A stretch of 32,926 nt of DNA from Candidatus Omnitrophota bacterium (GTDB lineage Bacteria; Omnitrophota; Gorgyraeia; Zapsychrales; Zapsychraceae), in NCBI GenBank assembly GCA_016214285.1, contig JACROV010000017.1, forward strand, positions 1 through 32,926, given 5' to 3'. The first letter of the stretch is position 1. Every line of letters begins with the position of its first letter. The notes under the pieces are model-generated. The model was not told the DNA's origin. It searched no databases and saw nothing but the letters and a program-made list of their open reading frames with translations. Positions 1,787-32,519 of this stretch are shown here, in pieces. The position numbers and the translations under genes are program-made.

Positions 1787-2779
1787 ATGCGTTCAAATGT
1801 GTTTATAAAAAACGTATTTTCGTTTCTTCTGCGCGTCGGGTTAAGCGGCGCGCTGTTGTGGTATCTTTTTTCGAAGATCGACATGGTCAGGATATGGGAG
1901 GTCTTGCGCGGCGCGCGCCTTGAATTCCTGGTCTATGCCGGCCTTGTTTTCTTCGTCGTCAATCTTGTCCTTCTCGCGCGCTGGTTTATCTTCATCAAGG
2001 CTTTGGAAGTCACCTCTTCCGCGCGGGACATCGTGCGGTATTATTTCGCCGGGCTGTTCGGCAATCTTTTTCTGCCGAGCACCATCGGCGGCGATATCCT
2101 CAAGATCTACGGTTTGTGCCGCAATAGTTCCCAGAAAACGAGGGTCGTTGCTTCGGTCTTGCTGGACCGCTTGAGCGGGTTCGCCGCAATCGTGGTGGTC
2201 TCGGTGATGGCCTTTACCCTGGGATACCGGTTCTTCCAGGAGGGCGTCATTGTGGTCCCGATTATCGGGATGGCTGTTCTGGCCGGGGGGTTTGCCTGCG
2301 TCTTGTTCAACGAAAAGCTCTTCAGTTTTTGTTGCGGTATTTTTGCCAAATTGCCAAAGGTCCAAAAGGCCCTGATGGGCCTTCATTATGATATCGCTTT
2401 GATGAAGGGTAAACGCCGCGAGGGTTTTAGCGCGATCGCCGTTTCCTGTCTGTCGCAGGCCGTTTACGCGGTGTGCTGGTATCTGATCGCGCGGGCGCTC
2501 TCCCAGGACGTTGACCTGGTCTATTTTTTTATTTTTGTTCCTCTGACGTGTGTCGCGGCCTCGTTCCCGTCGCTCGGGGGTTTAGGCGTACGGGAGATCG
2601 GGACCGTCTATCTTTTTGGCAAGGTCGGTATGAATTCGGAGATCGCGGTCAGTATTTCACTTGTTAACTTTATATTCATGGTCCTGATCGGGCTGCTCGG
2701 CGGGCTCAGCTATGTCCTTACACTATCTTCTGGACGGATACAACATCATCCATCAGATGCCTCCCCTGAACAAGCTTGA
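1787..2779 (+). CDS. flippase-like / lysylphosphatidylglycerol synthase TM-region family (UPF0104) membrane protein
   Basis: Multi-TM protein with 'GLFGNLFLPSTIGGDILKIYGL' and 'PSLGGLGVREIG' motifs. Confidence 0.85.
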   Translation: MRSNVFIKNVFSFLLRVGLSGALLWYLFSKIDMVRIWEVLRGARLEFLVYAGLVFFVVNLVLLARWFIFIKALEVTSSARDIVRYYFAGLFGNLFLPSTIGGDILKIYGLCRNSSQKTRVVASVLLDRLSGFAAIVVVSVMAFTLGYRFFQEGVIVVPIIGMAVLAGGFACVLFNEKLFSFCCGIFAKLPKVQKALMGLHYDIALMKGKRREGFSAIAVSCLSQAVYAVCWYLIARALSQDVDLVYFFIFVPLTCVAASFPSLGGLGVREIGTVYLFGKVGMNSEIAVSISLVNFIFMVLIGLLGGLSYVLTLSSGRIQHHPSDASPEQA

Positions 2780-3968: not shown

Positions 3969-4304
3969 ATGAGAGTCATTAGTCTTCAGTCATTAGTCTT
4001 TAGTCTGTTGTTTCTGGCGGGTTGTATGACGCAGACGGGCAACGTGGGCAACCTCCAGAGTTATTCCGCTCCGGCGCTTGAGGCGAAATGGATCCGCGAC
4101 GGCGAACCGATCGAATTCGAGGGAGCATTGTGGTACCCGGCCGACGGGATCGAAAGCTTGATGGATTCCGAGGTGTATCATATCGGCGAATATAAAGGCA
4201 CGCAGTTTTTTATCGACAAGCTCGATGTGCGCCCGTATGAACGTCTTTATACCAAGTACGGGAAAAATCAGTTCCGCTATTTCGAGAAGGAGAAACAGCC
4301 GTGA
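3969..4304 (+). CDS. small hypothetical lipoprotein inside the mla cluster
   Basis: Signal peptide MRVISLQSLVFSLLFLAGC (lipobox LAGC); overlaps mlaF start. The signal-peptide DNA is repeat-like. Confidence 0.8.
   Translation: MRVISLQSLVFSLLFLAGCMTQTGNVGNLQSYSAPALEAKWIRDGEPIEFEGALWYPADGIESLMDSEVYHIGEYKGTQFFIDKLDVRPYERLYTKYGKNQFRYFEKEKQP
3973..4008 (+). repeat. single arm of type D repeat (GTCATTAGTCTTCAGTCATTAGTCTTTAGTCTG)
   Basis: Tandem AGTCTT/AGTCAT words shared with 12752-12782 and 21905-21974. Confidence 0.75.
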
Positions 4305-7749: not shown

Positions 7750-8226
7750 ATGACCACTGGAATTTATTTAACGCGCTCTGGCTATCAGAAATTGCATGGT
7801 GAGCTGGAAAACCTTCAGAAACAGCGGCGCCAGATCGCCAAGGCTATCGGAGAGGCCCGGTTGCAGGGCGATATCTCCGAGAACGCCGAATACGACGCGG
7901 CCAAAGATGCCCAGGCGCATAACGCGGCCCGGATCGCCGAGCTGGAGGGCAAGCTGGCGGCGGTGAGGATCATCGAGGATGAAAATATCCCCTCCGACAA
8001 GATCTTCATCGGCGCTGTCGTGACGCTAAGGGACGTTGATTCGGGAGAACAGTTGAAATACATGATGGTTTCACCCGAGGAAGCCAGCTACGAGGAAAAC
8101 AAGCTTTCCATTTATTCTCCCGTGGGCAAGGGGCTGATGGGCCGCGCCGCGGGAGAAGAGGTCCAGATCAAGGTTCCCGCCGGCACTCTGAAATATAAAA
8201 TTGTTAAGATCGAACGGCCCAAATAA
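7750..8226 (+). CDS. greA: transcription elongation factor GreA
   Basis: 'YLTRSGYQKLHGELENL...RQIAKAIGEARLQGDISENAEYDAAKDAQ'. Confidence 0.95.
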   Translation: MTTGIYLTRSGYQKLHGELENLQKQRRQIAKAIGEARLQGDISENAEYDAAKDAQAHNAARIAELEGKLAAVRIIEDENIPSDKIFIGAVVTLRDVDSGEQLKYMMVSPEEASYEENKLSIYSPVGKGLMGRAAGEEVQIKVPAGTLKYKIVKIERPK

Positions 8227-8234
8227 AAATAATC

Positions 8235-8430
8235 AAGACGCAAGAAACAATCATCAAATAAATTACAAATTTCAAGCGCCAAACCACAAACAATAGACAA
8301 TACTAAATGACCGGATCCCAAAATATCGCGTTTAAAGATCGTTTTATAATTTGAATTTTGGTATTGTGTATTGCTTGTAATTTGTGATTTGTTTATTGGA
8401 TATTGCCTGGTTATTGTCTCTTGGTTATTT
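8235..8430. repeat. inverted repeat type B (ATTACAAAT..ACAATAGACAATAC / GGTATTGTGTATTGCTTGTAATTTGTGATTTG)
   Basis: Complementary arms; same words at 23527-23675, 25773-25915, 27836-27980. Confidence 0.85.
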
Positions 8431-8447
8431 CAACTTGGGAGTTAACT

Positions 8448-12075: not shown

Positions 12076-12658
12076 GAACAATAAATCCGTCGTGAACGCC
12101 GTCAATCTTTTCGCCGAAGCGGGACTGCTCAAGAGGATCAAACGCAGCGGCTGGTGGGTGGCCGGCATCAAAGACCCCGAGAGCGTGGCCGAACATTGTT
12201 TCCGGTGCGCCGTCATGGCCTATTACATCGCGCACCTGGAGAAGGCGAACGTTTCCAGGGTGATGATCATGGCGTTGTTCAACGACGTGCATGAATCGCG
12301 CATCAATGACCTGCACAAGATGGGGCATTTTTACATTGATTTTAAGGAAGCGGAGAAAATGGTCTTTAAAGACCAGATCAAGGATCTGGACCGGTCCGTC
12401 AAAGGAGAGCTGGAGATCCTGCGTAAAGAATATGAGGCCCAGCGGACGAAGGAGAGTTTGGTTGCCAGAGATGCCGATATCCTCGAGTGCTTGCTCCAGG
12501 CCAAGGAATATTACGACCACGGCTATCTTAAGGCCGCGAAGTTTTTCAAGGCCGCGCCGGAGCATTTAAAGACGAAAACCGCCCGGCGGTTGTGGCGCGA
12601 GATTCAACAATGGGACAGCAGTGCCTGGTGGGAAAGGGTAGTTAAATTTGAAAGGTAG
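12041..12658 (+). CDS. HD-domain hydrolase (YfbR/HDDC2-like)
   Basis: 'DPESVAEHCFRCAVMAYYIA...ALFNDVHESRINDL'; second metal motif 'ARDADILECLLQAKEYYDHG'. Confidence 0.88.
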   Translation: MRSRNRKKTPNKNNKSVVNAVNLFAEAGLLKRIKRSGWWVAGIKDPESVAEHCFRCAVMAYYIAHLEKANVSRVMIMALFNDVHESRINDLHKMGHFYIDFKEAEKMVFKDQIKDLDRSVKGELEILRKEYEAQRTKESLVARDADILECLLQAKEYYDHGYLKAAKFFKAAPEHLKTKTARRLWREIQQWDSSAWWERVVKFER

Positions 12659-13547
12659 AGTTACCGGACATCCGGTGACCCGGATATCCGGATATCCGGG
12701 TCTTCTAGTCCCGGGTTCCCGGATAGCCGGATTCCCAAAATTCTTAGTCTGTAGTCTCTGGTCTGTAGTCTTTGGTCTGTTCCTGCAAGGCTGCGCCACG
12801 ATGTACAACCCCGCCATGGGCCGCGAAGAATTCATCTTGATCTCCACGCCCTCCGAAGTGGAAATGGGCAAAAGTATCCACGAGAGCATTACCCGGGAAT
12901 ATAAGCTTTCCAGGAATCCGGCGCAGGTCGACAGGGTCCGCCGTATCGGTGAACGTGTCGCCAAAGTTTCCGACCGGCAGGATTATGAGTATCATTTCTA
13001 TCTTATCGAAGAAGACGAGATGAACGCCTTCACGACGCCGGGCGGCAATATTTACGTTTATACGGGTTTGCTGGAAAAGCTTAAGAACGACGACCAAGTA
13101 GCGTCGGTGTTGGCCCATGAGATCGGGCATTGCGCCGCGCGGCATACGGTCAAGAAATTTCAGGCAGCGCTGGGATATGATCTGATCAGCAGAATTGTCC
13201 TCAGCCGTATCGGTGACGGGACCGCCCGGCAGATCACGGAGTTGAGCTCCAACGCGGCCATGAGCATCATTTTTTCCGCCTACAGCCGCAAGGATGAATA
13301 TGAAGCGGACCGGCTGGGGGTCAAGTATATGCATCTGGCCTGTTTCGATCCCGGCGCCAGTATCGAAACGTTCAAGATCCTGGAGGCCGATTCCAAAGGC
13401 CCCGACGTTCCGCTTATTTTGCGCAGTCATCCCTATATCCATGACCGTATCCGCATGGCGGAAGAAGAGATCAAAGCTCTGGGGAGCAAATATGGGCCTG
13501 CCTGCCGACGTAACTTATCGTTTGCCCAAATTCCTATTGTCCTGTAA
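12648..13547 (+). CDS. M48-family metalloprotease, lipoprotein
   Basis: HEIGHCAARHTVK and EYEADRLGVKYM; lipobox LQGC. N-terminus is repeat DNA; start (TTG 12648 or later) uncertain. Confidence 0.9.
   Translation: MKGRVTGHPVTRISGYPGLLVPGSRIAGFPKFLVCSLWSVVFGLFLQGCATMYNPAMGREEFILISTPSEVEMGKSIHESITREYKLSRNPAQVDRVRRIGERVAKVSDRQDYEYHFYLIEEDEMNAFTTPGGNIYVYTGLLEKLKNDDQVASVLAHEIGHCAARHTVKKFQAALGYDLISRIVLSRIGDGTARQITELSSNAAMSIIFSAYSRKDEYEADRLGVKYMHLACFDPGASIETFKILEADSKGPDVPLILRSHPYIHDRIRMAEEEIKALGSKYGPACRRNLSFAQIPIVL
12657..12790. repeat. composite repeat: type E (CCGGATATCCGGATATCCGGG) followed by a type D arm (AGTCTGTAGTCTCTGGTCTGTAGTC)
   Basis: Type E words recur at 22325-22418; type D words at 3973 and 21905. 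Confidence 0.8.
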
Positions 13548-13606: not shown

Positions 13607-14035
13607 ATGCGCGTCATTTTTGCCATCCACGGGATCCGGAGCGCGAAGAAAGATAATTGGGTCTATAAATTTGCCGATTTCGTCGGCAAAGACCCGAGGT
13701 TTAAAGATGATCTCTCCGTTCCGTATCCATACGGGTTTCTTCTCGCTCTCGATTCTGTTAATCCCAAGACAAAATTTGATCATGTCAAAATGGTCATGAG
13801 GGAATTACGCGCGCTCACCGGCAAATATCCCGATGCCGGATTGAATATCGCCGCTCATAGTTACGGCACGGAATTAAGTTACCAGGCCATCAAGCGAAGC
13901 GGGGAGGACGGCAAGCCGCCGATCAAAGTCAACAAACTGATCCTCATCGCGAGTATCGTCTCCGCCCATCTCGAATATATTCTAGCCTTAATAAATTCTT
14001 CAATTCTTAATTATTTAATAGGGTTATGCCCTTGA
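13607..14035 (+). pseudogene. alpha/beta-hydrolase-like protein, apparently truncated
   Basis: IHGIRS... LNIAAHSYGTELSYQAI... KLILIASIVSAH then composition changes and the ORF ends in an inverted-repeat element; no remaining catalytic residues seen. Confidence 0.55.
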
Positions 14036-14110
14036 CTACCACTTCCAGCATACGATGGGCACGAAATCCTGTTGCACTGTTCATCAAAGGCATAACCCTA
14101 TTATTTAATT
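14009..14110. mobile_element. 102-bp element bounded by 25-bp imperfect terminal inverted repeats
   Basis: aattatttaatagggttatgccctt (14009-14033) versus aaaggcataaccctattatttaatt (14086-14110), with a 52-nt centre. Confidence 0.6.
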
Positions 14111-23515: not shown

Positions 23516-23526
23516 CGATTCTATAA

Positions 23527-23675
23527 ATTCCAATGAACAAATTCCAAATCACAAGCAAATCACAAATTTTAATGACCCAAAATCAAAACATAAATAAAAG
23601 CATGCCGGATTTTGGTCATTGTGTATTTGGTATTGGATATTGTTTGTAATTTGGTATTTGTGATTTGGTCATTAA
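23527..23675. repeat. inverted repeat type B
   Basis: attccaatgaacaaattccaaatcacaagc ... gtattggatattgtttgtaatttggtatttgtgatttggtcatt. Confidence 0.85.
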
Positions 23676-23696
23676 AACCATCTGTCGAGGTATTAT

Positions 23697-24329: not shown

Positions 24330-24908
24330 ATGAAACAACTCATTCTCGCTTCGCAGTCTCCGCAGCGCAGAAAACTGCTCAAGTTCTTGGGTCTGCGATT
24401 TGCTGTCAAGCCCAGCCGCGTCCAGGAGATCAGCAAGATCAAAACGACGTGTTCGGCGTTGGTGCAGGAAAACGCCCTGCGCAAAGCCCTCGACGTCGCG
24501 TCCCGTCTCAAAAGCGGGGTGGTAATCGGGGCGGACACGCTTGTGTACGTCGGGAACAAGCGTATCATCGGTAAACCGCGCGATCTTAAAGATGCCCGGC
24601 GGACCCTCAAAATCCTTTTTTCCCGCCCGCAATGGGTCTACACGGGGGTGGCGGTCATCGACGCGGCCACCGGCAAAACGCTGGTCGATTACGAGAAAAC
24701 CAAGATTTTTATGGTCCCGTTGACTGACGCGGAGATCACCCACTATCACCGCCGGATCAACCCATTTGACAAAGCCGGCGGTTTTCAGATCGAAGGATGG
24801 GGAAGCATCTTTATCCATCGCATCGAAGGATGTTATTCGAACGTGATCGGCCTTCCCATGGCGAAACTTGCCGGAATGCTGAAAAAAGTCGGCATCTCAA
24901 TATTATGA
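24330..24908 (+). CDS. maf: Maf-family nucleotide pyrophosphatase
   Basis: LILASQSPQRRKLL, VIGADTLVY, FDKAGGFQIEGWGS. Confidence 0.93.
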   Translation: MKQLILASQSPQRRKLLKFLGLRFAVKPSRVQEISKIKTTCSALVQENALRKALDVASRLKSGVVIGADTLVYVGNKRIIGKPRDLKDARRTLKILFSRPQWVYTGVAVIDAATGKTLVDYEKTKIFMVPLTDAEITHYHRRINPFDKAGGFQIEGWGSIFIHRIEGCYSNVIGLPMAKLAGMLKKVGISIL

Positions 24909-25768
24909 GAGAAGAGAAGATGGAAGATAGAAGATGGAAAAAGATTGAGAAAAAACAGCCGCCTCTTTCTTCTTTTTTAGCCGCGCTCCGGTTTCGTCTT
25001 TCTTTTTTCCATTTTCTATTTTCTATCTTCTGCCTCATGATTTTAAGTGGTTGCAGCACCGAGTACAATCTCGCCACGCAACAGCAGGAAACGCTGATTT
25101 ACGGGACGGACAAAGAGGTGAGTATCGGCGAGGCCGTGTCGGCGAAAATGGAACAGCAGTATGATGTGGTGACCGACGTGGACGTCAATGAACGCGCGCG
25201 GCGCATCCTGGAGCGCGTCACGGCGGTCTGCGACCGCAAGGACATCGTGTATTTCGTCAAGGTGCTCGATAAGGATGTGATGAATGCCGTCAGTTTGCCG
25301 GGCGGCTACGTTTATATTTTTAAAGGATTGATGGACAAACTCGAAACGGATGATCAGATCGCCGGAGTTATCGCCCATGAAGTCGGTCACATCACGGCCA
25401 GGCACGCCGTCAAAAGGATCCAGAACGCCTATGGGGCCATGATCCTGCAGGGACTGGCGACACGCTCCAGCGCCAAGGTGGCCCAGGGGGTTAACTTCGC
25501 GTTGATCTCTCTTTTTTCGGAATATTCCCAGCAGGATGAATTCGAGGCCGACCGCCTGGGCGTCAAGTATATGAAGAAGGCTGGATATGATCCCAACGCG
25601 ATGGTCCAGGTGCTTGTCAAGTTAAGGGAAGAGCAGGAAAAAAGCCCGGCGCAGGAATACAGCTACTGGCGCACGCACCCGTTCATCCCCCAAAGGATCT
25701 CCGTCGTCAACCAGGCCATTACGGGCAAAATGGATTTTAAGGATTACCTGAACTTGATGGGGGAATGA
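24905..25768 (+). CDS. M48-family metalloprotease, lipoprotein (second copy in window)
   Basis: HEVGHITARHAVKR, EFEADRLGVKYM; lipobox LSGC; start overlaps maf stop (ATGA). Confidence 0.9.
   Translation: MREEKMEDRRWKKIEKKQPPLSSFLAALRFRLSFFHFLFSIFCLMILSGCSTEYNLATQQQETLIYGTDKEVSIGEAVSAKMEQQYDVVTDVDVNERARRILERVTAVCDRKDIVYFVKVLDKDVMNAVSLPGGYVYIFKGLMDKLETDDQIAGVIAHEVGHITARHAVKRIQNAYGAMILQGLATRSSAKVAQGVNFALISLFSEYSQQDEFEADRLGVKYMKKAGYDPNAMVQVLVKLREEQEKSPAQEYSYWRTHPFIPQRISVVNQAITGKMDFKDYLNLMGE
24916..25031. repeat. inverted repeat type H: arms about 24916-24943 and 24998-25031
   Basis: gaagatggaagatagaagatggaaaaag versus ctttcttttttccattttctattttctatcttc. Confidence 0.88.
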
Positions 25769-25772
25769 TATT

Positions 25773-25915
25773 AATGAACAAATTACAAATTACAAATTAC
25801 AAGCAATGGACAATATCCAAATTACAAAATATCAATAAAATTTTATCATTTGGTCATTGTTGTTTTTGGTATTGTTTATTGTTTGTGATTTGTGGTTTGT
25901 TGTTTGGAATTTCTA
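25773..25915. repeat. inverted repeat type B, coding for N-terminus of DUF192 protein
   Basis: aatgaacaaattacaaattacaa..atggacaatatccaaatta ... tggtattgtttattgtttgtgatttgtggtttg. Confidence 0.88.
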
Positions 25916-26313
25916 GCAGGAGTTTTTCTCAAAATACCAGCCAGGTCTGCTTTAAAGAAAAATGCATCAACGTTGAAGTGGTCCAGAAAGAAGAAGAGCT
26001 TCACCGCGGGCTGCAGTTTCGAAAATCCCTCGATCCCGATAGCGGGATGTTATTTGTTTTCAAAAAAAGCTGGCCGTACGCGTTCTGGATGAAAGACACG
26101 CTGATCCCTCTGGATATGATCTGGATGGACGACACGCGAAGAATCGTTCATATCGAACATAACGTCCCACCCTGCACGGCGGATCCCTGCCCAAGCTACC
26201 CGCCCCGACATGAGGCGTTGTATGTCCTGGAGATCAACGCGGGATACGCTGAAGAACTCGGATTAAGACTGAGAGACACGGCGGAATTTAGATTAAAAGG
26301 GGCAGAGAAATAA
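25774..26313 (+). CDS. DUF192 exported protein
   Basis: 'VEVVQKEEELHRGLQFRKSLDPDSGMLFVFKKSWPYAFWMKDTLIPLDMIW'; N-terminal signal region is repeat DNA. Confidence 0.9.
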   Translation: MNKLQITNYKQWTISKLQNINKILSFGHCCFWYCLLFVICGLLFGISSRSFSQNTSQVCFKEKCINVEVVQKEEELHRGLQFRKSLDPDSGMLFVFKKSWPYAFWMKDTLIPLDMIWMDDTRRIVHIEHNVPPCTADPCPSYPPRHEALYVLEINAGYAEELGLRLRDTAEFRLKGAEK

Positions 26314-26424
26314 GAAGCAAGAAACAAAGATAAGATGCAAAGAATCAAGAGACAAGAAGCAAGAGAACCAGCTCTATTTTTTTTATTCTTTGCTTCTTTA
26401 TTTCTTACTTCTTTGCTTCTTTGC
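26306..26424. repeat. inverted repeat type I between convergent DUF192 gene and lpdA
   Basis: aaataagaagcaagaaacaaagataagatgcaaag ... ctttgcttctttatttcttacttctttgcttctttgc. Confidence 0.85.
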
Positions 26425-27835: not shown

Positions 27836-27980
27836 AATTTTAATGACCAAATTACAAGCACCAAATCACAAACAATGGACAACACCAAACTTCCAATGGC
27901 CGAAACATTTTATTTGCAAATTTTGGTATTGTGATTTGTACATTGTTTGTAATTTGGAATTTGTTCATTGGGATTTCTTA
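27836..27980. repeat. inverted repeat type B between lpdA and aceF
   Basis: taatgaccaaattacaagcaccaaatcacaaacaatggacaac ... gtattgtgatttgtacattgtttgtaatttggaatttgttcatt. Confidence 0.88.
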
Positions 27981-27983
27981 AAA

Positions 27984-29267
27984 CTACTTTTCCAGCTCCG
28001 TCGTAAACGGTTGTTCGAGCGCTTCGCAAACCCAGCGCAGGAAACGCGCGCCGTTGGCGCCGTCGATCAGGCGATGGTCGTAGGAAAGAGAAAGCGGGAG
28101 CATAAAATGCGGAGAGAGCACCAGTTTGCCATTGACATAATACGGTTCCCACTGGGCGCGCGCAACGCCGAGAATAGCGACCTCGGGCCAGTTGACGATG
28201 GGGGTAAACTGCGTCCCGCCGATGCCGCCGAGATTAGTGACCGTCATGGACCCGCCCTGCAATTCATCCAGAGAGATTTTTTTGTCCCGGACGCGCTGGG
28301 CGGTCGCGTTGAGCTCATCCGCCAGCTGGTAGATGGTCTTGCGGCCGACGTCACGGATGACCGGCACGATAAGCCCGCGGTCGGTATCAACGGCGACGCC
28401 GATATGACAATATTTCTTGTAAATGATCTCCTGAGTCGTCATGTCGATCGAGGCGTTAAATTCGGGAAATGTTTTCAGGGCCGCGGCCAGGACTTTTAGA
28501 AGGAACGGGGTGACGGTCAATTTGCGTTCCGGCGTGGAATAGCGTTTGCGCAACTGTTCCAAATCGGTAATGTCGGCTTTGTCGAACTGTGTGACATGGG
28601 GAATTGTCGTCCAGCAAAGTGTCATGTGCTCCGCGGTCTTTTTGCGGATGTTGTTCATCGGCTGGCGGTCGATAGTGCCCCATTTGCTGAAATCCGGTAA
28701 TGGTTTGGCCGCGACACCCGTCGGCGCCATTGTCGCGCGGGAAGTATTGAGCGCTTTGGCAAAGGCCTTGACGTCTTCAACGGAAATTCTTCCGCCGGGG
28801 CCGGTCCCGGGAACCTGGGCGACGTTAATGCCTATTTCACGGGCGAAGCGGCGCACGGAAGGTGCGGCCGGGACATCCATAGGGACTTCCGGTAAAACAG
28901 CGGCTGCTGTTTGCGGCCGTGCCGCATAGGTTGCGGGTGCGGGCCGCGGGCTTCCCGGGGCCGCGGCAACAGAAGCCGCTGGCGTGGATTGCGGGGTTTC
29001 TTTCGGCGTGGTTTTCCCAACGCCGGAAGTTTTTCCCTCCGCGACGCGCATGACGAGCTGGCCGATCTTGACCTCTTCGCCTTTTTTGATCAAAATTTCT
29101 TTGATGGTCCCATCGCAAGGAGAGGGGATCTCCAGGGAAGCTTTATCCGTTTCCATTTCCAGAAGCGGCTGGTCTGCCTTGACAACATCACCGACCGCGA
29201 CAAGGACGGCGACGATATTGCCGGATGTGATGTTCTCACCGACGGCGGGTAATTTGAAGTTTAACAT
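27984..29267 (-). CDS. aceF: dihydrolipoamide acetyltransferase (E2)
   Basis: Lipoyl motif METDKASLEIPSP, E3-binding domain VRRFAREIGINVAQVPGTGPGGRI, catalytic SYDHRLIDGANGARF. Confidence 0.95.
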   Translation of the reverse strand: MLNFKLPAVGENITSGNIVAVLVAVGDVVKADQPLLEMETDKASLEIPSPCDGTIKEILIKKGEEVKIGQLVMRVAEGKTSGVGKTTPKETPQSTPAASVAAAPGSPRPAPATYAARPQTAAAVLPEVPMDVPAAPSVRRFAREIGINVAQVPGTGPGGRISVEDVKAFAKALNTSRATMAPTGVAAKPLPDFSKWGTIDRQPMNNIRKKTAEHMTLCWTTIPHVTQFDKADITDLEQLRKRYSTPERKLTVTPFLLKVLAAALKTFPEFNASIDMTTQEIIYKKYCHIGVAVDTDRGLIVPVIRDVGRKTIYQLADELNATAQRVRDKKISLDELQGGSMTVTNLGGIGGTQFTPIVNWPEVAILGVARAQWEPYYVNGKLVLSPHFMLPLSLSYDHRLIDGANGARFLRWVCEALEQPFTTELEK

Positions 29268-29353: not shown

Positions 29354-32119
29354 TTACGAAATCATCGGATTCAGCTTCTTGGGATTTATTTCCAGCTTTT
29401 TGGCCGCTTGCTTGAGCACATCGGCTTTGATCTTTTTTTCCTTCGCGAGGGTCACCAGCGTGCCGAAGACGATATGGCGCGCGTCGACCTCAAAAAAGTC
29501 CCTGAGGGCTTTGCGGCTGTCGCTGCGTCCGAACCCGTCGGTCCCCAGCGATAACATCGGGCCCGGGACCCATTGCGCGATGCCATCGGGCATGATCTTC
29601 ATGTAATCCGAGGCGAAGATGAACACGTCGCCCTGGCCATGAAGGCATTTGGTCACGTAGGGGATTTCAGGCTTTTGCGCCGGGTTGAGCATGTTCCGGC
29701 GTTCGACGTGCAGGGCCTCGCGGCGCAGTTCATTGTAGCTGGTCACGCTCCAGACATCCGCGGCCACCCCATAATCTTCTTCCAGGATCTGCTGGGCCTC
29801 AAGGACCTGGTGAATGATGGCTCCACTGCCGAACAGTTGCGCGCGCGCCGCCGCTTTCTTCTTCCCGGAGGATTTGAATTTATACATGCCCTTGAGGATG
29901 CCGTCCCGGACACCTTCAGCCGGCAGGCTCCTCCCCCTCGGCCAAAGGCTCCCTGCGGGGAGGGGACCTATGGCTGCGGCCAAAGGCTCCCTGCGGGGAG
30001 GAGGCATCGGCGGCATGGCGTAATTTTCGTTGCCGACGCTGATGTAATAAAGAATATTTTCCTGTTTTTTGTACATGCGGTCGATGCCGTCACGGATAAT
30101 GACGGCCAGTTCGAAAGCGAAGGCCGGGTCATACGTGACGATGTTCGGGACGGTGGATAAAAGCACGTGGCTGTGGCCGTCCTGGTGCTGGAGGCCTTCA
30201 CCGTTAAGCGTGGTGCGTCCCGCGGTCCCGCCGATCAAAAAGCCGCGGCAGCGCGAATCCGCCGCCGCCCAGACCAGATCGCCGACGCGTTGCGGGCCGA
30301 ACATCGAATAATAGATGTAGAAGGGGATGGTGTTGATCCCTTGCGTCGAATACGCCGTACCGGCGGCGATAAACGAAGAAATGGCGCCGGCTTCATTGAT
30401 GCCTTCCTCAAGGATCTGTCCGTCCTTGGCCTCCTTGTAATAGAGGAGACTGTCTTTGTCCACGGGTTCATAGAGCTGTCCGACGTGTGAATAGATTCCG
30501 CACTGGCGAAAGAGGGCCTCCATGCCGAAGGTGCGCGCCTCATCGGGGATAATGGGGACGATGAGCTTGCCGATCTCTTTATCCTTGAGAAGTTTGGTCA
30601 GGATCCGGACGTAGGCCATGGTGGTCGAGACCTCGCGGCCCGCAGTCCCTTTGTAAAATTCTTCGAATAATTCGTCGGAGGGCGCGGGCAGCGGCTGGCT
30701 GGTCTCATGACGCGCGGGCATGTAGCCGCCTAAAGCCTTGCGGCGTTCATGCAGATATTTCATGACTTCGGAATCCGGGCCGGGTTTGTAAAACGGCGTT
30801 TCGGCGACGTCTTTGTCGGAGATCGGGATGTTAAAGCGCGTGCGGAATTGTTTCAGTTCGTCCTCGTTGAGCTTTTTCTGCTGGTGGCTGATATTTTTTC
30901 CTTCGCCGCTTTCGCCGAGGCCGTAGCCTTTGATGGTCTTGGCGAGGATAACGGTCGGCTTGCCTTTGAAGTCGACGGCCGCCTTGTAAGCCGCGTAGAC
31001 TTTTACGGGGTCATGCCCGCCGCGGCGCAGGTTTTCCAGGTCCTCGTCGCTTAAATGCCGGACCATCTCCAGCAGGCGCGGATCAGTGCCGAAGAAATTT
31101 TCGCGGATGTAGGCGCCGGATTCGACGGAATATTTCTGGTATTGGCCGTCGATGACCTCGCCCATGCGTTTGGCCAGAATGCCTTCCGTATCTTTTTCCA
31201 GCAAGGGATCCCAGTCTTCGCCCCAGATGACCTTGATCACGTTCCATTGGGCGCCGCGGAAGATCGCTTCGAGTTCCTGGATGATCTTGCCGTTGCCGCG
31301 CACGGGGCCGTCGAGGCGCTGGAGGTTGCAGTTGATGACGAAGATAAGGTTGTCGAGATGTTCGCGCGAGGCCAGATGGATCGCGCCGAGCGATTCCGGT
31401 TCGTCGCACTCGCCATCGCCCATAAAGACCCATATCTTGGCGTCGTCTTTCGGTTTCAGGCCCCGGTCTTCAAGATAACGCATGAACCGGGCCTGGTAAA
31501 TACCGGTTAGAGGCGCGAGCCCCATGGAAACGGTGGGGAACTGCCAGAAATTCGGCATGAGCCACGGATGGGGATAGGAGGAGAGCCCGCCGCCTTCTTT
31601 TAATTCCCGTCGGAAATTTTCGAGTTTTTCTTCGCTTAAACGGCCTTCCAAAAATGCCCGCGCGTAGACGCCGGGAGAGGCGTGTCCCTGGAAATAAACG
31701 AAATCGCCGCAAAAATTGTCCGTGCGCGCGCGGAAGAAATGATTGAACCCGACCTCGAACAAGGTCGCGGCGGAAGCGTAGGTGGAAATATGCCCGCCGA
31801 TGCCGGCCTCAGCGTGGTTGCCGCGAACGACCATCGCCATCGCGTTCCAGCGGATGATGCTTTTGATCTGGCGCTCAAGGTCACGGTTACCCGGATAGGA
31901 CGGTTGTTTGCTTTTGGCGATGGTATTAATATAGGGTGTGTTAACGGTAAAGGGGAGTGTGACGCCGGCTTCCTGGGCGCGGATCTGTAGCTGCTGGAGG
32001 ATCTTTTGGGCTTGTTCCGGGGACCCGTGCTTGAGGACATAATCCAGGGAACTCATCCATTCTTTGATCTCTATGTCATCGACCTCGGCTGCCCGACGAC
32101 GAAGCTCATCCGCGCTCAT
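29354..32119 (-). CDS. aceE: pyruvate dehydrogenase E1, homodimeric type
   Basis: ThDP region GDGECDEPES, full-length AceE-type sequence NYAMPPMP...EGVRDGILKGMYKF. Confidence 0.95.
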   Translation of the reverse strand: MSADELRRRAAEVDDIEIKEWMSSLDYVLKHGSPEQAQKILQQLQIRAQEAGVTLPFTVNTPYINTIAKSKQPSYPGNRDLERQIKSIIRWNAMAMVVRGNHAEAGIGGHISTYASAATLFEVGFNHFFRARTDNFCGDFVYFQGHASPGVYARAFLEGRLSEEKLENFRRELKEGGGLSSYPHPWLMPNFWQFPTVSMGLAPLTGIYQARFMRYLEDRGLKPKDDAKIWVFMGDGECDEPESLGAIHLASREHLDNLIFVINCNLQRLDGPVRGNGKIIQELEAIFRGAQWNVIKVIWGEDWDPLLEKDTEGILAKRMGEVIDGQYQKYSVESGAYIRENFFGTDPRLLEMVRHLSDEDLENLRRGGHDPVKVYAAYKAAVDFKGKPTVILAKTIKGYGLGESGEGKNISHQQKKLNEDELKQFRTRFNIPISDKDVAETPFYKPGPDSEVMKYLHERRKALGGYMPARHETSQPLPAPSDELFEEFYKGTAGREVSTTMAYVRILTKLLKDKEIGKLIVPIIPDEARTFGMEALFRQCGIYSHVGQLYEPVDKDSLLYYKEAKDGQILEEGINEAGAISSFIAAGTAYSTQGINTIPFYIYYSMFGPQRVGDLVWAAADSRCRGFLIGGTAGRTTLNGEGLQHQDGHSHVLLSTVPNIVTYDPAFAFELAVIIRDGIDRMYKKQENILYYISVGNENYAMPPMPPPRREPLAAAIGPLPAGSLWPRGRSLPAEGVRDGILKGMYKFKSSGKKKAAARAQLFGSGAIIHQVLEAQQILEEDYGVAADVWSVTSYNELRREALHVERRNMLNPAQKPEIPYVTKCLHGQGDVFIFASDYMKIMPDGIAQWVPGPMLSLGTDGFGRSDSRKALRDFFEVDARHIVFGTLVTLAKEKKIKADVLKQAAKKLEINPKKLNPMIS
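29921..30003. repeat. two copies of the 24-bp GC-rich core inside the aceE CDS
   Basis: GGCCAAAGGCTCCCTGCGGGGAGG at 29940-29963 and 29978-30001, plus an inverted partial copy (ggctcctccccctcggcc). Confidence 0.9.
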
Positions 32120-32436: not shown

Positions 32437-32519
32437 TGCCGGAGGTGGGACTCGAACCCACACAGCCAAAGGCCACACGCCCCTGAAACGTGCGTGTCTA
32501 CCAGTTTCACCACTCCGGC
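32437..32519 (-). tRNA. tRNA-Leu(CAG), CCA not encoded
   Basis: Reverse complement GCCGGAGTGGTGAAACTGGTAGACACGCACGTTTCAGGGGCGTG...GGTTCGAGTCCCACCTCCGGCA; acceptor stem pairs, anticodon stem CACGT/GCGTG, loop TTCAGGG. Confidence 0.95.

Follow-up and report, generated by a model that had tools for sequence, protein, structure and literature searches.

A repeat hairpin translated as the probable signal peptide of a DUF192 protein in Candidatus Omnitrophota

The DUF192 locus and its leader

A long inverted repeat of a kind also found between genes, here called type B, lies at the start of a DUF192 gene in a 32,926-nucleotide stretch (contig JACROV010000017.1, in the following the window) of the Candidatus Omnitrophota assembly GCA_016214285.1. 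This genome (G000; 1.82 Mb, 104 contigs) was compared with G003, G004 and G005 of the same genus, with G015, G012, G019, G038, G008 and G006 of other genera (G038 representing another family of the same order), and with G021. All genomes compared are metagenome-assembled genomes (MAGs), and genes were called by a simple hexamer score. Synteny of the 16-32 kb part of the window is kept in G003 and G005 and in large part in G004 and G021.

The DUF192 gene (PF02643; 25774-26313, plus strand) is assigned with E = 1.5e-30 and 105.6 bits, as compared to a Pfam gathering cutoff of 27. Two in-frame ATG codons are candidate starts: the first, at 25765, overlaps the TGA that ends the M48 metalloprotease lipoprotein gene just upstream (M48a; 24905-25768, plus strand) in an ATGA (25765-25768), and the second, at 25774, has a better spaced purine tract (GGGGGA) than the first and a counterpart in G003 (ATGAACAAAT). 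The first ~45 codons consist of a long A+T-rich inverted repeat. Its A-rich 5' arm (25779-25834) encodes a polar/basic n-region and its T-rich 3' arm (25851-25906) a hydrophobic h-region. The predicted RNA hairpin has a minimum free energy of -51.1 kcal/mol (z = -8.3), and none of 200 shuffles folds as well. The leader reads MNKLQITNYKQWTISKLQNINKILSFGHCCFWYCLLFVICGLLFGIS, followed by SSRSFSQN and the mature domain; its four lysines ahead of the core FWYCLLFVICGLLFGIS give the basic n-region and hydrophobic core of a Sec-type signal peptide.

The repeat is read through in the frame claimed by the original prediction, and its words recur, as also claimed, in intergenic hairpins reported at 8235, 23527 and 27836; the stem survey described below places these copies, used as controls and not assigned to a strand, at 8221-8436, 23526-23679 and 27836-27985. 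The last one is located upstream of the minus-strand lpd gene, and its plus strand is open by chance. The leader is almost certainly translated repeat DNA, the protein is very probably exported, and the type B repeat probably serves as its Sec-type signal peptide. The idea that the entire leader is repeat goes too far: the repeat stops near residue 45, SSRSFSQN ahead of the DUF192 domain does not belong to it, and the hydrophobic core is found unchanged in the stemless G003 ortholog. Neither a start behind the repeat nor a non-exported protein gained support.

The putative cleavage region SRSFSQN offers S-x-S type sites only, and its G003 counterpart is SISCSQN. A lipobox cysteine follows the core in 8/8 aligned DUF192 orthologs and is missing in G000, which thus lacks the signature of a signal peptidase II lipoprotein.

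At its 3' end, the DUF192 gene carries another hairpin (AAGAAGCAAGAAAC type, 26296-26422), which overlaps its last codons and stop. Hairpins of two different types hence lie on either side of the gene; in G005, the DUF192 leader is built from a related word type.

Start codons and conservation of the core

Two neighbouring leaders have starts that are pinned by their genes' overlaps. The M48a leader (MREEKMEDRRWKK...FFHFLFSIFCLMILSGC; stem 24896-24956/24991-25047) begins at an ATG whose bases belong to a 4-base overlap (ATGA) with the preceding gene's stop. G000, G003, G004 and G005 share this arrangement, as do G015, G012, G019, G038 and G008, but G006 does not. The leader ATG of LptE (PF04390; 17107-17694, plus strand; leader MNRDYRPSTIDYRPASVMFSRFFRSMVYGLWSMVLIAGC, stem 17114-17147/17177-17210) lies in such an overlap in all four genus genomes tested, irrespective of whether a hairpin is present. 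Since both stems are situated between this fixed start and the lipobox, they form part of the coding sequence and must be translated.

These pinned starts also bear on the notion that DUF192 translation starts within the 3' arm (at TTG 25879 or GTG 25885), leaving a short conventional signal peptide and an untranslated 5' hairpin. The 3' arm does hold these in-frame codons, and a strong hairpin just behind the start would hinder initiation (mean unpaired probability of 0.12 for +4 to +30). However, no purine-rich ribosome site precedes either codon, the upstream ATG with its MNK is kept in stemless G003, the M48a and LptE starts are fixed in each of the genus genomes examined, and the sole methionine that follows the first start codons of G000 M48a comes seven codons before the homology begins, too late for a signal peptide. 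A start inside the 3' arm is accordingly very improbable.

Comparison of the signal-peptide core (25876-25917; LLFVICGLLFGISS) with its relatives indicates how hairpin and codons may have come together. In G003, a homologous start is followed almost at once by TTATTGTTTGTAATTTGTGGTTTGTTGTTTGG, i.e. the same core without a 5' arm. At the protein level, the core is identical in G003 and similar in G021 (VLFVIGGLLIGIWG). G000 and G003 share 39/42 bases, and all three differences are synonymous (P = 0.011 when compared with all single-base changes, 0.079 when only transitions are counted). In the M48a 3' arm, 9/13 differences between G000 and G021 are synonymous (P = 0.0001 or 0.014). The DUF192 3' arm thus coincides with a probably pre-existing core. 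This points to older signal-peptide codons on which a hairpin later grew or with which it recombined. Identity of the G021 core is 31/42 to G000 and 30/42 to G003, the latter in fixed register and reached by 0/20,000 codon shuffles; as unrelated stems attain 28-30/42 in a free search, the G021 core may instead be an old decayed arm.

Hairpin exchange among relatives

Orthologous leaders carry different hairpins, all of them in open frame. For M48a, the GAAGATAG type is found in G000, G005 and G021, the CGAAATTCG type in G003 (MKIRNSKHETRN...FILMLFCCALAGC) and the CCAATAACC type in G038 (MTNKPITNHQ...FGYCLLVIGSFAGC); G004 has no significant stem. The DUF192 leader is of type B in G000, of the AAGAGGTAAG type (AAGAGG) in G005, and stemless in G003, G004 and G021. 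LptE shows one hairpin type in G000, G003, G005 and G021 and none in G004.

The lipoprotein C100 has a type B leader in G000 only. Its G005 counterpart (90% identical over the matched part) has MRKNVLLWVSLFAFAGC, and G005, G003 and G004 all have short ordinary signal peptides at this position; hence, the G000 leader is a recent gain. An in-frame palindrome that differs from the orthologs and also occurs between genes, as described for Rickettsia palindromic elements (RPEs), is observed in the C100 gain and in the switches at M48a and DUF192. It is this comparison of orthologs, not the open frame, that is convincing. The phenomenon also extends to neighbouring genes and related genomes with other hairpin families, and is not a single curiosity.

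The exchange must be weighed against the view that the hairpins are neutral or selfish in-frame decorations of the RPE kind, with an old core that exports the protein alone and tolerates the extra n-region. This view is consistent with the identical stemless core in G003, with the presence of hairpins at gene boundaries everywhere, with open frames at chance level (see below), and with a GC-rich repeat in frame in the cytosolic AceE protein. Against it, most hydrophobic residues before the cleavage site are repeat-encoded in C100 of G000 and in DUF192 of G005, so the repeat supplies the core there. Mere decoration is judged unlikely, though it retains a substantial minority share of the probability.

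The AceE case is an observation in its own right: aceE (29354-32119, minus strand) contains an in-frame insertion of about 28 residues (PPRREPLAAAIGPLPAGSLWPRGRSLPA, 29905-30003) that corresponds to the GC-rich repeat GGCCAAAGGCTCCCTGCGGGGAGG in the E1 component of pyruvate dehydrogenase and is RPE-like. aceE of G005 and G003 is devoid of it (MPPMPEGAEEG and MPAMPEGAREG, respectively).

Open reading frames across stems

The original prediction had proposed to ask whether the coding type B copy lacks stop codons more than expected. This comparison was run and is not decisive, as an intergenic copy, at 27843, is open too. Among eleven other matches to the leader protein in G000, nine have stops and two are open, namely the genuine lipoprotein leader of C100 and this copy (C1:27843), antisense to aceF. 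Gene-free frames across stems are stop-free in 139/976 cases (14%). At this chance level an open frame alone proves nothing for the DUF192 leader, and stop-codon enrichment was rejected as evidence for coding.

Several results speak against a signal-peptide role. Stems are open in the frame of the downstream gene in about 14/91 cases, which matches the 14% expected by chance; for the LptE arms, no constraint at the amino-acid level was found beyond hydrophobicity; and, at about 30 residues, the DUF192 n-region is unusually long, so that, together with the lost lipobox cysteine, a loss of function in G000 is conceivable.

Of the stems, 94 are followed by a gene, and 18 of these are open over at least three quarters of their length. 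Behind the 76 closed ones, the protein from the first ATG is signal-peptide-like in 20 cases and has a lipobox in one (loose rule). The genes whose start has to fall within or ahead of the stem encode LptE, M48, a YkuD L,D-transpeptidase, a GGDEF sensor whose N-terminal part is long, a protein with TPRs, and small lipoproteins or exported-looking proteins. The stem-dependent leaders in G000 would hence belong to envelope or exported protein types, a pattern and not a test, the gene types having been sorted by hand after the data had been seen.

Repeat hairpins as a class

Stems were surveyed by arm-versus-arm alignment (score of at least 20) in 1.58 Mb of G000, window included, with locally shuffled DNA as control. 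The survey yielded 195 stems, as compared to none in shuffled DNA. Their word families include CAAATTAC, CGAAGCACGAAATCC, GACTATAGACC, GAAGATAGAAGATGG, AAGAAGCAAGAAAC, CCGGATATCC and others; part of the 195 are GC-rich or resemble miniature inverted-repeat transposable elements (MITEs) and are not word hairpins. A search of G000 with the DUF192 repeat returned 75 overlapping matches, read as roughly 30 separate places. Genes were called on both sides of 164 non-coding-like stems, and for 157 of these the two genes are codirectional. As to MITE features, no fixed ends or consensus were seen and longer copies are 66-75% alike, target duplications not having been searched for. An Rfam scan of the window gave no gathering-score match over any hairpin, its sole match being a tRNA (32437-32519).

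The location of the stems raises the question of a role at the RNA level, with the hairpin serving translation coupling or mRNA processing between overlapping operon genes, thereby setting the product ratio, and the leader peptide being incidental. Structures of about -55 to -65 kcal/mol right at the start codons of overlapping genes, and pairing that is maintained while the words change, fit such a role. By contrast, between codirectional genes, G-U pairs favour the sense strand only slightly (87 vs 70), and gene order is unchanged in orthologs without a significant stem (M48a and DUF192 of G004). RNA-level selection, as judged from G-U strand bias, is thus not supported, and a mainly RNA-based function is considered improbable.

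Polarity of the stems and proposed mechanism

Stems have a built-in polarity. In 126 of 191 non-coding-like stems the 5' arm is A-rich, and so it is in 82/102 of the strongly skewed ones. In A-first stems, the 3' half is more hydrophobic than the 5' half in 93% of six-frame readings, with mean Kyte-Doolittle values of -1.01 (5' half) and +0.86 (3' half) and a charge of +2.8 in the 5' half. Leader polarity was judged by Kyte-Doolittle values and charge, and signal peptides were called by a loose rule or by eye. In the genetic code, all codons with T at the second position specify hydrophobic residues; a T-rich arm therefore tends to encode a hydrophobic stretch. The polarity of A-first stems matches the order of n-region and h-region in Sec signal peptides. 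An inverted repeat is identical on both strands, and orienting stems relative to genes as 'A-rich first' is consequently meaningless and was dropped.

The sequences themselves show the read-through, the pinned starts, the exchange of hairpin types among orthologs and the polarity; for the DUF192 protein, we infer export, cleavage and the way in which the hairpin arose at this site. Translation would begin at ATG 25774 (or 25765), next to where the upstream gene ends; a long basic n-region would come from the A-rich 5' arm and the hydrophobic core from the T-rich 3' arm. Export would follow, with the protein either cut by signal peptidase I near SRS/SFS or kept as a membrane-anchored form, its lipoprotein status presumably being lost in G000 (SRSFSQN vs SISCSQN in G003). 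The stem at the start codon may limit initiation, in which case coupling from the upstream gene would matter.

Across the lineage, word hairpins at gene boundaries may be tolerated in coding sequences mainly as leaders of exported proteins, because an A-rich/T-rich repeat reads basic-then-hydrophobic in nearly any frame and on either strand. Tentatively, and with somewhat less than even confidence, the A-rich/T-rich word hairpins of this Omnitrophota lineage are proposed as a renewable, strand-symmetric source of signal peptides, with new hairpins growing on T-rich codons of signal peptides, or recombining with them, and envelope leaders repeatedly rebuilt from interchangeable families while export is kept. 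If true, the DUF192 leader, and those that related species have made for the same few envelope proteins out of other, unrelated hairpins, would illustrate a way for junk-like repeats to turn into functional signal peptides. This would be a testable route from non-coding repeats to working protein parts, in which inverted symmetry supplies the basic and the hydrophobic half. For annotation, gene callers may mis-set starts or drop hairpin leaders, and leaders in MAGs like MNKLQITNYK...WYCLLFVICGLLF need not be spurious.

Relation to known repeat systems

Signal peptides from repeats have precedents. In Yersinia, the MITE RU-2 (YPAL) makes up a portion of the signal peptide predicted for YPO1552, whose homologs have signal peptides unrelated to RU-2 (Delihas, 2007, PMC2759123; PMC2229807). 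Both systems share a repeat within the signal peptide and homologs with unrelated ones. RU-2, however, concerns few loci and one defined MITE family, whereas in the present lineage several unrelated word-hairpin families provide the leaders of a number of conserved envelope genes and are exchanged for each other at one and the same position, with no fixed MITE ends seen.

Rickettsia RPEs are palindromic and in frame in many open reading frames, and orthologs may carry different groups near the same site (PMC3767692, PMC3733652); R. conorii proteins with an N-terminal RPE-1 are expressed, according to work cited in PMC3733652. In-frame palindromes whose type differs between orthologs are common to both systems. 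RPE-encoded stretches are reported at solvent-exposed protein positions (PMC3767692), whereas the Omnitrophota hairpins occupy the signal peptide, where the composition of the repeat itself would make the function.

Repetitive extragenic palindromic (REP) sequences, bacterial interspersed mosaic elements and enterobacterial repetitive intergenic consensus sequences resemble the Omnitrophota stems as short palindromic repeats at gene boundaries, mainly of codirectional or convergent genes; the Omnitrophota stems differ in being long, of low complexity and made of drifting words. The GTAG/CGTC-tagged REP consensus was not noticed in them, with no search aimed at it. REPs at predicted N-termini were mostly judged non-coding (PMC3733652). 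In Enterobacterales, signal peptides are gained by acquisition of N-terminal regions, which, in the part of the source consulted, are not traced to a repeat (PMC5952966). No paper on Omnitrophota hairpins of this kind was found in the literature searched, subscription titles being outside its scope. Signal peptides from repeats being known, it is the recurrence, type switching and built-in polarity that look new.

Further leaders and repeats

A second M48 lipoprotein gene, M48b (12648-13547, plus strand), has an uncertain start codon (TTG 12648). Its leader runs across a CCGGATATCC hairpin (12671-12739) as well as AGTCTGTAGTC words, whereas the leader of its G005 ortholog is formed by a GACTATAG-type inverted repeat. 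The small lipoprotein MRVISLQSLVFSLLFLAGC (3969-4304, plus strand) has a leader of AGTCTTCAGTCATTAGTC words, a half element with no stem. Elsewhere in G000, an exported-looking TPR-containing protein (C25 (L091), 2368-2517, minus strand) and an exported-looking YkuD transpeptidase (C3 (L042), minus strand) have putative hairpin-encoded signal peptides.

Other inverted repeats are of a different nature. The one at 14009-14110 (AATTATTTAATAGGGTTATGCCCTTGA...) has a core, AATAGGGTTATGCC, with 51 copies in 1.58 Mb (both strands counted), and is thus MITE-like, unlike the word hairpins. The repeated inverted sequence AGCCATATTATCACCGAGCGAGTTCCGCAGCC with its matching arm, likewise not a word hairpin, occurs at G000:C36:7060, L042:8333, L090:9762, L092:4018 and L055:13510. 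A further MITE-like inverted element, CTAGTACTTTGTCAGAAAAGTTTTTAATAGTTGATT with its matching arm, is T-rich first and found on L060, L096, L121, L125, L091, L097, L102 and C73.
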